The notes under the pieces were generated by a model, which was not told where the DNA came from, did not search any database, and saw only the letters and a program-made list of their open reading frames with translations. From the NCBI GenBank assembly GCA_029552125.1, contig JAKPEE010000051.1, positions 1-33,157 of the forward strand: a stretch of 33,157 nucleotides of DNA, written 5' to 3'. The position numbers were made by a program, and so were the translations under genes. Below, one piece after another: positions 21,049 to 26,371 of the stretch; position 1 is the stretch's first letter; each line of letters begins with the position of its first letter. Source of the stretch: Bacillota bacterium. Its GTDB lineage: Bacteria; Bacillota; Dethiobacteria; DTU022.

Positions 21049-21252
21049 TCACGATCCGTTCCCGCCCCGGAACAGGGGGGGAAGCCGGCGCATCACCCGG
21101 TCTACAAAACCGGGGGGAGGCCTGTCCCACTCAACAGCAGCAAGAACAGGCCCGCTGAGGGCGTATTTTTGCGGCCTTAGCCTGCCAAATTTTTTTCTGC
21201 TCTGCGCCTCCGGTCCTGATGCTTCAGGCCCGGCGTGATTCAAACTGCACAT
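21049..21252 (-). CDS. Small protein overlapping the ECF sigma gene, possible anti-sigma remnant
   Basis: This 67-residue basic ORF starts inside the end of the sigma gene (28-base overlap) at an ATG with a very strong site (GGGGAGGA, about 6 bases upstream). That argues it is translated. There is no membrane segment and no zinc motif. The stretch WDRPPPGFVDRVMRRLPPL resembles the segment that precedes the membrane helix in many anti-sigma proteins, so it may be a shortened cytoplasmic anti-sigma factor. It ends just before the terminator. I do not recognise a named family. Confidence 0.5.
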   Translation of the reverse strand: MCSLNHAGPEASGPEAQSRKKFGRLRPQKYALSGPVLAAVEWDRPPPGFVDRVMRRLPPLFRGGNGS

Positions 21253-21808
21253 ATTCTTCCTCCCCTATCCAGAGGGCACGCAGCGCCTTGCGGGCCCGGT
21301 AGAGGCGTGTTTCGATGGTCTTCAAGGGCACCCCGGCCTCGCGGGACATCTCCCGGTAAGTTAAACCGTCCAGGTAATGGCGTTTCAACACGTAACGATA
21401 ATGCCCGGGCAGGCGGGAGAGAAATCCGTGCAGCCGCTCCTGCTCTTCTTTGGCCAGGATTATTCCTTCCGGCGCTCCATCAGGCCTGGGCCCGCATTCC
21501 AACTGGCGGGCATAACCCTCCAGCCGCTTTTTTTCATCGCGGCGGCGGCGGTGAAAATCGATGGCCTTATTTACCGCAATTTTAAGCAGCCAGGTTGAAA
21601 ATCGGGCTTCGCCGCGGAAACAGCTCAGAGAGCGGTAGGCCTGCCAGAATGTTTCCTGGGCCAGATCTTCCACTTCGGGCCGGGAACCGGTAATCCGGGC
21701 TATGGCCGCAAAAACCATGCCCTGATATTTCTCCACCAGGCGGCGATAGATTTCCCTTTCGCCGGCCAGGACTGCCTTTACCATACTCCGGTCATCAATA
21801 GCAATCAT
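21224..21808 (-). CDS. ECF-type RNA polymerase sigma factor
   Basis: This 194-residue sigma-70 family protein has only regions 2 and 4, as in extracytoplasmic-function factors. Region 2 reads LVEKYQGMVFAAIARITG, DLAQETFWQAYRSL (2.2) and FSTWLLKIAVNKAIDFHRRR (2.3-2.4). Region 4 reads LPGHYRYVLKRHYLDGLTYR followed by the helix-turn-helix GVPLKTIETRLYRARKAL. The ATG at 21808 is preceded directly by a 9-base sequence (TAGACGGGG) that can pair with a copy 56 bases upstream. The small downstream ORF that overlaps its end is the natural candidate for its regulator. The promoters it recognises are not evident. Confidence 0.92.
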   Translation of the reverse strand: MIAIDDRSMVKAVLAGEREIYRRLVEKYQGMVFAAIARITGSRPEVEDLAQETFWQAYRSLSCFRGEARFSTWLLKIAVNKAIDFHRRRRDEKKRLEGYARQLECGPRPDGAPEGIILAKEEQERLHGFLSRLPGHYRYVLKRHYLDGLTYREMSREAGVPLKTIETRLYRARKALRALWIGEEEYVQFESRRA

Positions 21809-21882: not shown

Positions 21883-22062
21883 CCGCAAAAAAATATACCT
21901 CCAGAGCTTCCGTAAAGCTTTACCAGGCCTGAGCAAGCTCCCCAGGCCCTGCAGCCAACCCCTTGCACAAAACAAAGGGGTGCAAATTAAAGGTTTTTTT
22001 CTAAATTTGCAGAATGTGTATTGTCAAACAGTTAATTTATGGTGGAACGGACGGTGTTGCAA

Positions 22063-23394
22063 ATGTGTGATACCATGGTTGCCCTTGGCAACTCTACCCG
22101 GGATGGCTCAGTGCTTTTCGCCAAAAACAGCGACCGGCAGCCCAATGAACCGCTGCTTTTCATCCGCATTCCCCGTAAAAAGCACCAGCCGGGAGCCAGG
22201 GTGAAATGTACTTATATCGAAGTGGACCAGGTTGCCGAAACATACGAAGTGGTTCTGCTCAAACCTTCATGGATGTGGGGCGCCGAAATGGGCATTAATG
22301 AATTTGGCCTGAACATCGGCAATGAAGCGGTGTTTACCAGGGAGAGCTATGGCCGGGAGGAAAAGCTGCTGGGCATGGATATGCTCCGCCTTGCCCTGGA
22401 AAGGTGCAAAACCAGCGAGGAAGCCTTAAATCTCCTCACCAGCCTTCTGGAACGCTACGGCCAGGGAGGCAACTGCGGCTATGAAAAACCTTTTACCTAC
22501 CATAATGCCTTCCTGATCGCCGATGCCCATTCCGCCTGGGTCCTGGAAACCGCCGGCATCTACTGGGCCGCCGAAAAGGTCAAAGATATCAGAAATATCT
22601 CCAACCGCCTTTCCATAGGCGCCAATTTCGACCGCTGCCACCCCGACCTGGTTAAACATGCCGTGGATAAAAAATGGTGTAAAAGCGAGGCTGACTTCCA
22701 CTTTGCCCGCTGCTACAGCGATCCCCTGGTGACCAGGTTCAGCGGCTCCGCCGCCCGCTCTTGCGCCGCCCGTGCTGCACTGGAAAAAGAGAAAGGGCGC
22801 ATTGACATGCAAACGATGAAAAAAATTCTGCGCTCGCATGATCCCGCCGTGGAGGGCAAACAGTTTACCCGCCACTCGCTGAAAAGCGTCTGCATGCACG
22901 GCGGCTTTATCTTCGGCGACCACACCACGGGCAGCTATATCGCCTCCATTAACGACAAAAGGTGCTCCTACCTGGTCACGGCGGCATCCACCCCCTGTCT
23001 GGCCCTGTTCAAGCCTTACTGGATGGTGGAAGGAGAAAACTTTACCTTTGCCGAAGACGCTGAAGCTGCGGCGGTGGATTTCTGGAGAAAGAGAGAAAGG
23101 TTGCACCGGCTCGTCCTGGAAAATAAAATCCCCGATCTGCAGGCCTACCTTGCCGCACGGGACCGCCTCGAAACAGAACTTGAGGGCATGATGGCCGCAG
23201 CAGCAGATGCCCCGGAAAGCAGGCTGAAAGAAATCATGGACTGCGCCCTGGCCGAAGAAGAAAAGCTGCTGCAGGAAACCTTCAGCACCATCCCGGAACC
23301 GCAAAAACCGGGTAAAATCGGCGGCTCTCTTTATTATAAGCACTACTGGAAAAAGCAGAACGCTTCCCTGGAGCAGCCGCGCCGGTATAAATAA
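22063..23394 (+). CDS. C69 family peptidase, secernin-like (Ntn hydrolase)
   Basis: The sequence MCDTMVALGNSTRDGSVLFAKNSDR is the hallmark N-terminus of the C69 dipeptidase/secernin family of N-terminal nucleophile hydrolases. The Cys after the initiator Met becomes the nucleophile, and NSDR helps build the active site. Other family segments are WMWGAEMGINEFGLNIGNEA and AWVLETAGIYWAAEKV. The frame is open to an ATG at 22039, which would add an 8-residue propeptide. The ATG at 22063 exposes the Cys directly and is preferred, giving 443 residues. The ribosome binding site is weak in both cases. There is no signal peptide, so it is cytoplasmic. It probably hydrolyses dipeptides or other small amides. 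It forms no obvious operon. Confidence 0.88.
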   Translation: MCDTMVALGNSTRDGSVLFAKNSDRQPNEPLLFIRIPRKKHQPGARVKCTYIEVDQVAETYEVVLLKPSWMWGAEMGINEFGLNIGNEAVFTRESYGREEKLLGMDMLRLALERCKTSEEALNLLTSLLERYGQGGNCGYEKPFTYHNAFLIADAHSAWVLETAGIYWAAEKVKDIRNISNRLSIGANFDRCHPDLVKHAVDKKWCKSEADFHFARCYSDPLVTRFSGSAARSCAARAALEKEKGRIDMQTMKKILRSHDPAVEGKQFTRHSLKSVCMHGGFIFGDHTTGSYIASINDKRCSYLVTAASTPCLALFKPYWMVEGENFTFAEDAEAAAVDFWRKRERLHRLVLENKIPDLQAYLAARDRLETELEGMMAAAADAPESRLKEIMDCALAEEEKLLQETFSTIPEPQKPGKIGGSLYYKHYWKKQNASLEQPRRYK

Positions 23395-23461: not shown

Positions 23462-23490
23462 TTGACGCGAACTTATGTTCGACTTATAAT
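23462..23490 (+). promoter_or_regulatory. Strong sigma-A promoter of the coiled-coil gene
   Basis: TTGACG (23462-23467), an exact 17-base spacer and a perfect TATAAT (23485-23490), located 43 bases upstream of the start codon. The spacer is filled by the LexA-type palindrome. Confidence 0.9.
23468..23481 (+). promoter_or_regulatory. LexA/DinR-type SOS box between -35 and -10
   Basis: CGAACTTATGTTCG is a perfect 5-bp inverted repeat (CGAAC-N4-GTTCG), matching the Firmicutes LexA box core GAAC-N4-GTTC. It fills the spacer of an otherwise near-ideal promoter, so bound LexA would exclude RNA polymerase. It predicts DNA-damage induction of the gene at 23533. Confidence 0.8.
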
Positions 23491-23532
23491 ATTGACAGGC
23501 TCTTCTTTATTTTATAAGGAAGGAGGAGCAAG

Positions 23533-23856
23533 ATGATGGAAAAAATCCTGGAACAAATATTCAGCAAATTAAATTCCATGGATGAAAAAATAGGCTCATT
23601 AACAAGCGACGTCTCCACACTGAAAAGCGACGTCTCCACACTGAAAAGCGATGTATCTACACTAAAAAGCGACATGCAAAAATTTGCCAGGAAACTTGAT
23701 GCTGTATTTGAACAAACCGGGTTGCTGACTGAATTTAAAACCGAAGTGATCGAGAGACTGAACAAAATAGCCAGCGACAATCTCTCTCTCCAGCATATAA
23801 TCGGTGAACACGATGTAGCCATCCGCTCCATGCAAAGAAGCGTATTCTTTAAATAA
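23533..23856 (+). CDS. Small heptad-repeat coiled-coil protein, probably SOS-induced
   Basis: This 107-residue protein is helical throughout. The N-terminus (MMEKILEQIFSKLNSMDEKI) is followed by heptads of the type DVSTLKS, three of which are encoded by 21-base tandem repeats. A second helix contains LLTEFKTEVIERLNKIASD and a polar end HDVAIRSMQRSVF. No enzymatic or membrane segment is visible. It is probably an oligomerising cytoplasmic protein. AAGGAAGGAGG gives an excellent start at the first of two ATGs. It stands alone between the peptidase gene and the convergent metal ATPase. The function is unknown. Its promoter suggests a role after DNA damage. Confidence 0.85.
   Translation: MMEKILEQIFSKLNSMDEKIGSLTSDVSTLKSDVSTLKSDVSTLKSDMQKFARKLDAVFEQTGLLTEFKTEVIERLNKIASDNLSLQHIIGEHDVAIRSMQRSVFFK
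23608..23670 (+). repeat. Three 21-nt tandem repeats coding heptads
   Basis: Units at 23608-23628, 23629-23649 and 23650-23670. The first two are identical (GACGTCTCCACACTGAAAAGC) and the third differs at four bases. Each encodes D-V-S-T-L-K-S, so gain or loss of a unit keeps both reading frame and heptad phase. Confidence 0.95.
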
Positions 23857-23941: not shown

Positions 23942-25924
23942 TTACTGATAACGGAGTACGCGGGTTGCGTTGATGATGGCGATGAGGGCCACGCCCACGT
24001 CGGCGAAGACCGCTGCCCAGATGGAGGCCGCCCCCAGCACGCCCATGGCCGCAAACAACCCTTTGACGCCCAGGGCAAGGACGATATTCTGGATGACGAT
24101 TTTGCGAGTAAAGGCGGCAATTTCGATGGCCCGGGCCACCCGGGCGGGGTTGTCGTCCATGATCACCACGTCTGCGGCTTCAATGGCCGCGTCCGTCCCC
24201 AGCCCGCCCATGGCGATGCCCACATCAGCCCGGGTCAAGGCGGGGGCGTCATTGATCCCGTCACCAACAAAAGCCAGCTTCCCCCCCGCAGCTTGCAAAT
24301 CCTCGATTTTAGCCACTTTGTCTTCCGGAAGCAGCCCGGCCCAGTAGCGATCCACCCCGGTGCGGCCGGCGATGTCTGCGGCCGCCTCCGCCCGGTCACC
24401 GGTGAGCATTACTGTGGCCAGGCCCAGGTCCCGCAGCCTGCGCACCGCCAGGGAAGCCTCTGCTTTAAGCTGATCCCGCACCACCAGGCAACCTGCGTAC
24501 TGCCCATCCACGGCCACGTAAACGGCGCTGCCGGTACTGCTGCAAGGGAAAGCCTCTACCCCTTCCTGCCGTAAAAAGAGCAGGCTGCCGGCCAGGATGG
24601 TATGGTTTTGCACGGTGGCCTTAACGCCCAACCCCCTCTTTTCCGTATAGGCGCTGTTCTCTGGCGGAGATAACTCGCCCGGGTAGGCTTTTACCACTGC
24701 GCGGGCCAGCGGATGCTGTGAATAATACTCGGCATGGGCCGCCCAGAAAAGCAATTGATCTTCTGTCCACCCGGGCTGGGCCAGCACCTCTTCCACCTCA
24801 AAGCTGCCCCGGGTCAAGGTGCCAGTTTTATCAAACACTACTGTCTTCACCTGGTGCAGTGCCTCCAGGAAATTGCCCCCCTTGACCAGGATGCCATGCC
24901 GGGAAGCGCTGCCGATGCCGCTGAAATAACTTAATGGCACAGAGATTACCAGGGCACAGGGGCAGGAGATCACCAGAAGCACCAGCGCCCGGTAAAGCCA
25001 GCTATGGAAAGCAGCCCCGGCCAGGAGAGGAGGCAGCACGGCCACGGCGAAGGCGGAGAGCACCACCGCCGGGGTGTAATAACGGGCGAAGCGGGTAATA
25101 AACTGCTCGGTTTTTGCTTTCCGCCCGGCGGCCTCCTCTGTCAGCCGGAATATTTTAGCCAGGGAAGTCTCGCCGTATTCCCGCTCCACCCGTACCTGCA
25201 GCAGGCCGGTGCTGTTGACCGCTCCGGCCATGACCATGTCTCCCTCTTCAACCCGCTGCGGCAAAGACTCTCCGGTCAAGGCGGCATTATCCACGTATGA
25301 TTGTCCCTGCACCACCGTGCCATCCAGGGGGATTTTTTCGCCCGGGCGCACCAGGATGGTCTGCCCGGGCCGGACCGCTTCCGGGCTCACTCTGATAATA
25401 CCTTTTTCGGCACTGATCAGGTTGGCGTAGTCAGGGCGTATCTCCATTAAAGCAGCAATGGAGTGCCGCGAGCGATTAACCGCGCTCTCCTCCAGCAGTT
25501 CGCCCACGCTAAAAAATAGCATCACCGCCGCTGCTTCCGGCAGTTCGCCTATGGCTATCGCCCCTGCGCTGGCCACGGTCATTAAAAAATATTCATCCAT
25601 GAGGCGGCCCCGGAAAAGATGATCAAGGGCCTGGCGGATGACCCGGCCTCCGGCCAGAAGGTAGGCCAATAGAAATAGGGCATGGCCGGGCCAGGCTGAA
25701 GGAAAGAAAGGAAAGATCTGAAGCCGGGCCCGGAAGCCCAGCCCCAAGATAAAAAACAGGACCGCCGCACCGATAAGCGCCACTTTGCCTGCCGGTAAAG
25801 ATAAGCGCTTTAAAGGGGCGGTAGCTTTTTTCCCTTCTGCATGATGGTTAACCGGTAGCTGCTGCAGCATTTCACTGGCCGCGCTGCAAGCAGAACACTC
25901 CCCGCCACAGCTTCTGTTCCGCAT
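23942..25924 (-). CDS. cadA: Heavy-metal P1B-type ATPase, CadA/ZntA-like
   Basis: This ATP-driven efflux pump is for divalent soft metals (Zn, Cd, Pb). The 660-residue product has the membrane CPC motif (VISCPCALVISVPL), the phosphorylation site DKTGTLTRG, the HP motif in SQHPLARAVV and the hinge GDGINDAPALTRADVGIAMG. The actuator loop is AALTGESLPQ. It has no classical N-terminal HMA domain. Instead there is a short Cys-rich leader (CGGECSACSAASEM) that could bind metal. CPC plus a CadC-like regulator points to Cd/Zn/Pb rather than copper. The ATG has GGGAGG upstream. It is co-transcribed 45 bases after the ArsR-type regulator gene. Confidence 0.94.
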   Translation of the reverse strand: MRNRSCGGECSACSAASEMLQQLPVNHHAEGKKATAPLKRLSLPAGKVALIGAAVLFFILGLGFRARLQIFPFFPSAWPGHALFLLAYLLAGGRVIRQALDHLFRGRLMDEYFLMTVASAGAIAIGELPEAAAVMLFFSVGELLEESAVNRSRHSIAALMEIRPDYANLISAEKGIIRVSPEAVRPGQTILVRPGEKIPLDGTVVQGQSYVDNAALTGESLPQRVEEGDMVMAGAVNSTGLLQVRVEREYGETSLAKIFRLTEEAAGRKAKTEQFITRFARYYTPAVVLSAFAVAVLPPLLAGAAFHSWLYRALVLLVISCPCALVISVPLSYFSGIGSASRHGILVKGGNFLEALHQVKTVVFDKTGTLTRGSFEVEEVLAQPGWTEDQLLFWAAHAEYYSQHPLARAVVKAYPGELSPPENSAYTEKRGLGVKATVQNHTILAGSLLFLRQEGVEAFPCSSTGSAVYVAVDGQYAGCLVVRDQLKAEASLAVRRLRDLGLATVMLTGDRAEAAADIAGRTGVDRYWAGLLPEDKVAKIEDLQAAGGKLAFVGDGINDAPALTRADVGIAMGGLGTDAAIEAADVVIMDDNPARVARAIEIAAFTRKIVIQNIVLALGVKGLFAAMGVLGAASIWAAVFADVGVALIAIINATRVLRYQ

Positions 25925-25969: not shown

Positions 25970-26347
25970 TCAACTGCCGCCGGGGCCGGCATGGCCCACG
26001 TGCTCCAGGCCCTGCTCAAACATTTTAACCACATGGTCATCGTCAAGGGAGTAAAAAACCATCTTGCCCTGGCGCCGGTATTTAACCAGGCTGGCGCCCC
26101 GCAATACCCTGAGCTGGTGAGAAACAGCGGAAGAAGACATCCGTAAAACGGCCGCCAGGTCACAAACACACAGTTCCTGGCCGGCCAGGGCCGATAAAAT
26201 TTTTATCCGGGTTTGGTCGCCCAGAATTTTAAAAATTTCAGCCAGCCGCTGCACCACCGCCGGCTCCGGGGCTTCCGCCAGGGCCCGGGCCACCGCTTCT
26301 CCGTTGACGCTGTGCACCTGGCATGTGTCAAAGCTGCCTCTGTCCAC
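25970..26347 (-). CDS. cadC: ArsR/SmtB metal-sensing repressor, CadC-like
   Basis: The winged helix (FKILGDQTRIKILSALAG, SSSAVSHQLRVLRGASLV, then wing YRRQGKMVFYSLDD) is typical of ArsR/SmtB repressors. Both metal sites of CadC are visible. Cys in the N-terminal DTCQVHS pairs with ELCVCDL in helix 3. The C-terminal DDHVVKMFEQGLEHVGH fits the alpha5 zinc site. The frame is open to 26371, but that start touches the operator and has no ribosome binding site. The GTG at 26347 has AGGGGTGA with 7-base spacing, giving 125 residues. It should repress its own operon with cadA and release on Cd, Pb or Zn. Confidence 0.92.
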   Translation of the reverse strand: MDRGSFDTCQVHSVNGEAVARALAEAPEPAVVQRLAEIFKILGDQTRIKILSALAGQELCVCDLAAVLRMSSSAVSHQLRVLRGASLVKYRRQGKMVFYSLDDDHVVKMFEQGLEHVGHAGPGGS

Positions 26348-26371
26348 TTTGCCGTCACCCCTGCAATACAT

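Follow-up and report, generated by a model that had tools for sequence, protein, structure and literature searches.

The described system closest to the locus analysed here is the Bacillota LexA regulon of the B. subtilis and Clostridia type. GAAC-N4-GTTC is quoted for B. subtilis LexA in the main-text passages of one study (PMC4234289), and those of a study on C. thermocellum report a LexA motif matching that of B. subtilis, as well as a YneA-like gene adjoining lexA (PMC8457756). SOS division inhibitors are typically encoded by a single, small SOS-controlled gene, as is the case for YneA (PMC13396833) and SosA (PMC6851548). Both are membrane proteins, YneA carrying a LysM domain. Beyond its repair core, the SOS regulon of Gram-positive bacteria is poorly known outside a few models. 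The LexA-regulon literature retrieved by term searches covered C. difficile, C. thermocellum and gut metagenomes, in main-text passages, and the passages from three of these papers (PMC4234289, PMC8457756, PMC3998124) make no mention of a protein family like the one described below.

The window, i.e., the whole stretch of 33,157 nucleotides that was analysed, comes from a Bacillota bacterium of the class Dethiobacteria. It contains a short gene preceded by a palindrome of the LexA type, with the following features:

23462-23467, + strand: -35 hexamer TTGACG (direct reading, promoter scan)
23468-23481, + strand: putative LexA (SOS) box CGAACTTATGTTCG in the promoter spacer (direct reading; same motif and register at homologues)
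23485-23490, + strand: -10 hexamer TATAAT (direct reading, promoter scan)
23520-23526, + strand: ribosome-binding site AAGGAGG, 6 bases before the ATG (direct reading)
23533-23856, + strand: 107-codon gene for a heptad-repeat coiled-coil protein, ATG at 23533 (open reading frame, predicted single helix, heptads)
23604-23673, + strand: 21-bp tandem repeat, 3.3 copies, encoding heptads DVSTLKS (repeat analysis)
23704-23739, + strand: core signature VFEQTGLLTEFK, EQTAxLxEF in the family (family alignment)
23803-23838, + strand: C-terminal segment GEHDVAIRSMQR, GEHExxIRxLxRR in the family (family alignment)

The original prediction had placed the palindrome between TTGACG and TATAAT, inside a 17-base promoter spacer, and all these elements are present: the promoter scan gives an 11/12 match with a 17-nt spacer, of which the palindrome fills 14 bases, ACT separating it from the -10. 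As in the Bacillota LexA regulon, a GAAC-N4-GTTC operator thus overlaps a promoter, 64 bp before the 107-codon gene. This gene stands alone and is monocistronic. It follows a C69/C45-type hydrolase gene on the same strand (22039-23394) and precedes, in convergent orientation, genes for a heavy-metal P-type ATPase (23942-25924) and an ArsR-type regulator (25970-26371). The window copy sits among chromosomal metabolic genes. An ECF-type sigma factor gene is also found in the window (21224-21808, - strand).

Counted alone, the box is unremarkable. When the window is shuffled 100 times, 41 of the shuffles contain a match with one mismatch allowed. Pattern searches of the draft genome (2.56 Mb, 87% complete) find the perfect CGAAC-N4-GTTCG once, against four occurrences of the reversed control pattern, and a single box in a genome of this size is no more than chance could give. 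The search for further GAAC-N4-GTTC boxes proposed by the original prediction yields 13 occurrences genome-wide, against 28 for the control. The box gains its significance from elsewhere, namely from its position in a promoter, from the SOS genes that share its motif and from its recurrence upstream of homologues.

The genome has the regulator expected to read such a site. It encodes a lexA (L076:3952-4566) with both the DNA-binding and the S24 peptidase domains (PF01726 and PF00717), whose own promoter carries CGAACACTTGTTTT upstream of a TATAAT-type -10. In most relatives, the lexA promoter likewise contains a C(G/A)AAC-N4-GTTTG-type box, about 55 to 103 bp upstream. Promoter sites with GAAC-N4-GTTC include those of ruvC (GAACATTTGTTC), a Y-family (translesion) polymerase, a DEAD-box helicase, a DNA-methylase-like gene and the window gene, whose box differs from the consensus at one inner base, with T where A is usual. 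The genome thus resembles the described regulon in having lexA together with a boxed ruvC and a boxed Y-family polymerase, and the assignment of the palindrome to the LexA type is borne out in this respect. That the box might instead belong to another palindromic repressor was considered but discarded, since the remaining boxed genes are part of the classic SOS set. The search proposed by the original prediction was to include lexA and recA; a box is found at lexA, whereas recA of the same genome (L194) has only a degenerate site, GAACACCTGTGA, that of the sibling species G001 (L197) being GAACACCTGTGC. Unlike lexA, the recA promoters of close relatives mostly contain no box within one mismatch, and lexA, ruvC and the polymerase were therefore used as the yardstick instead of recA.

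Some of these boxed loci have further features. The Y-family polymerase gene (L077:3500-5175, G000:C143) has two LexA boxes, AGAACAGTTGTTCT and TGAACATATGTTCG, flanking its -10, and a frame overlapping its 3' side has a YolD domain. The DEAD-box helicase, which has an HRQ1-type winged-helix match, is preceded at 110 bp by a LexA-type box (L226:1500-3011, G000:C22) and is likely, judging from these features, an SOS-controlled repair helicase. A near-perfect box, CGAACATTTGTTCA, lies 111 bp before the large DNA-methylase-like gene (L225:1-1683, G000:C19), which is at a contig end and could possibly belong to a restriction or defence locus.

The recurrence of the box was assessed across the phylum. 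A search of 150 relatives gave matches in 24 genomes, and a profile built from 12 sequences (A1) detected family members in 51 of the 399 genomes drawn evenly from across the phylum, as well as in named records such as Thermincola ferriacetica, Dethiobacter, Acetivibrio alkalicellulosi, Halanaerobium and Sporosarcina. Merging of these results left 93 distinct homologues across Bacillota (E <= 1e-8, at least 100 bp of upstream sequence), some of which may not be true homologues, as coiled-coil profiles can draw in unrelated coils. Between -150 and +70 of the first start codon, a perfect GAAC-N4-GTTC is present at 11 of the 93 (mean of 0.2 and maximum of 2 in 200 shuffles), and a match within one mismatch at 25 (shuffles: mean 5.0, maximum 13). 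Among all 256 half-site palindromes, GAAC-N4-GTTC ranks first at the homologues; permuted half-sites or other spacings give nothing comparable there, the other spacings being found 0 times. RAAC-N4-GTTY occurs at the promoter of 23 of the 93 homologues (shuffles: mean 1.27, maximum 5) but at only 3 of 254 non-family open reading frames of the same loci (Fisher p = 1e-11). The box carriers fall into 21 of 79 sequence clusters and at least 10 families, with a median C-terminal identity of 17.5%.

Positions that were not selected in the search agree with this. The spacer begins or ends with A/T in 41 of 46 half-sites, and C/G is preferred in the outer flanks; these positions count for SOS control because they match the LexA consensus. 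In three homologues (L133, L164, L145), the -35/box/-10 register is nearly identical to that of the window. The original prediction had named homologues without the box as one of the observations that would speak against it. No box is found at 70 of the 93, including one from the same family (L056), yet about a quarter of all homologues are boxed, and carriage reaches 37% (18/49) in those with the EQTAxLxEF core, versus 5/44 in those without it (p = 0.004); both proportions greatly exceed those of all controls. As far as sequence can tell, SOS control of this orphan coiled-coil gene is thus supported. Two genomes, G081 (L067, L117) and G096 (L050, L126), each encode two divergent paralogues, all of them with their own LexA-type box. 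The homologues have no shared or conserved neighbour and no repair-gene neighbours.

The gene is not fixed in its place. In the sibling species G001, of the same genus, the flanking genes are about 90% identical and the block ACAGGTTGACGCGAACTTATGTTCG is unchanged, while the whole reading frame is missing, the -10 is altered to TGTAAT and the spacer is one base longer; the LexA box is thus retained there without its gene. At the former place of the gene (L242:631-710, G001:C10 about 22430-22510), a GC-rich inverted repeat is followed by Ts. In another genome, G002, the syntenic site differs, holding by our reading of the translation an MFS-type transporter, and a boxed homologue is located elsewhere. 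From this loss and this relocation, the gene is accessory and changes place, yet where present it is often accompanied by a LexA box of its own. Three IMG/VR contigs hold real relatives, one beside a serine-recombinase-like open reading frame and two with phage integrases; none of the three viral copies has a box close upstream. In 50,697 phage records, the family is absent apart from partial coil matches.

The 107-residue product had been described as a helical protein with heptads, and the predicted structure agrees. AlphaFold2, run with 18 family members, predicts one helix from residue 2 to residue 106 (mean pLDDT 96.4), and the heptad register continues without a break from residue 9 to the C-terminus, I/L/M/V/F occupying 24 of 28 a/d positions versus 8 of 68 elsewhere. 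Six residues (E60, Q61, T62, L65, E67 and F68) are invariant in the 18 sequences, and in many homologues the C-terminus is a basic IRxLRRR tail. By our reading, T62 of EQT and H93 of GEHD occupy an a and a d position, respectively, which would place polar layers in the core. Length varies between members mostly in the repeated coil, that is by a variable number of heptads; in the window protein, the middle heptads arise from the 21-bp DNA repeat. With a pI of 6.1, the protein is close to neutral throughout, and it has no cysteines. Its sequence contains no membrane segment, hydrophobic stretch, N-terminal signal or lipobox, and matches no enzymatic, DNA-binding or membrane family or domain.

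The protein had also been said to belong to no known family, which holds for the curated collections: Pfam and NCBIfam give only coils below cut-off, and PADLOC only weak coil matches. It does not hold for phage clusters, as phrog_5553 is matched over its full length (residues 2-103 to positions 12-113 of 114, E 4e-11). This is a phage family without assigned function, whereas most of the copies in the present analysis come from bacterial genomes. PDB gives only coil look-alikes. The trimeric coiled coils of Lpp type and of fibritin have a similar heptad pattern, by weak matches, but these span the repetitive coil only, and the window protein has neither a lipoprotein signal nor fibre domains. 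LPP (PF04728; 26.7 bits versus a cut-off of 29.1) was rejected, there being no lipoprotein signal, and so was YabA (PF06156; 22.3 bits versus 30), whose C-terminal zinc motif is absent. Bacillus phage minor head proteins were rejected as homologues, their matches being confined to the repeat region. The YneA-type LysM family is not found in the protein by the Pfam and NCBIfam scans, the amphipathic heptad helix running throughout.

Taken together, our results suggest that the window gene is a single-gene SOS transcription unit producing a coiled-coil rod under LexA control, a reading to which we give a probability of about 0.8. LexA bound to CGAACTTATGTTCG would cover the -35/-10 spacer and block RNA polymerase; upon DNA damage, RecA filaments would trigger LexA self-cleavage and the gene would be expressed. 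Its product would be a soluble, homo-oligomeric rod made of a constant N-terminal zipper, a variable number of heptads acting as a spacer, and a constant segment with EQTAxLxEF and GEHExxIRxL. It would probably act by binding, because it has no catalytic domain, and its most likely role would be that of a damage-induced scaffold or inhibitor, which would use the conserved belt to dock on a protein of the cell cycle or of DNA repair. From LexA binding and induction to the oligomer, its partner and the outcome, these steps are what we infer, and any partner or phenotype of the rod is conjecture.

What the rod would do can be read in more than one way; the original prediction had named division arrest, toxicity and nucleoid protection as candidate roles. 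It could arrest the cell cycle, as an SOS inhibitor of division or replication replacing YneA, SosA or SulA. Such inhibitors are, like the window gene, small and driven alone by SOS, and searches gave no LysM open frame under 296 codons in the genome and no YneA-like frame in the open reading frame list around lexA. However, the genome is only 87% complete, there is no overlap with known inhibitors, and YneA and SosA are membrane proteins, in contrast to the predicted soluble heptad rod, so that this version of our explanation is held tentatively, well below even odds. The rod could instead be an accessory to repair or to RecA nucleoprotein, bridging DNA or modulating complexes of the RecA or RecN type. 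This other version would fit a motif common to ruvC, the translesion polymerase and the DEAD-box helicase, and the basic tail of many homologues; it is nevertheless held slightly less probable than the first, considering a near-neutral protein with no DNA-binding domain and a gene with no repair-gene neighbours.

The two remaining explanations concern the gene itself. As the cargo of a mobile element, it would be a prophage-type gene serving the element and using the host SOS signal. The full-length phrog_5553 match, the relatives on IMG/VR contigs, a location that varies between genera and the absence from a sibling species all point in this direction, but the near absence from phage records, the viral copies without a close box and the chromosomal metabolic surroundings of the window copy make it improbable. 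Finally, the palindrome could be due to chance and the gene could encode an ordinary, constitutive coiled-coil protein. The count of one perfect box per genome would allow this; the enrichment at homologues, the unselected positions fitting the LexA consensus and the shared -35/box/-10 register make it very improbable. Over repair accessory, mobile-element cargo and chance, we favour the cell-cycle scaffold or inhibitor, because the rod has neither a catalytic nor a membrane part.

The predicted SOS link recurs across the phylum Bacillota, which goes beyond what a single window could show. The link of this family to DNA damage is probably under selection, because a LexA operator is kept at a median C-terminal identity of 17.5%, over ten or more families and without any conserved gene neighbour. 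The LexA regulon is of a known kind, while the effector family is absent from the passages of the term-searched papers and, within these passages, looks like an undescribed but conserved SOS part. At close to even odds, it could be a widespread, undescribed class of Bacillota SOS effectors: coiled-coil rods of adjustable length, with neither enzymatic nor membrane parts, that dock on a conserved partner through EQTAxLxEF and thereby stop the cell cycle or organise repair. The family thus offers a testable entry to a step of the SOS response and a functional label for proteins so far called hypothetical.
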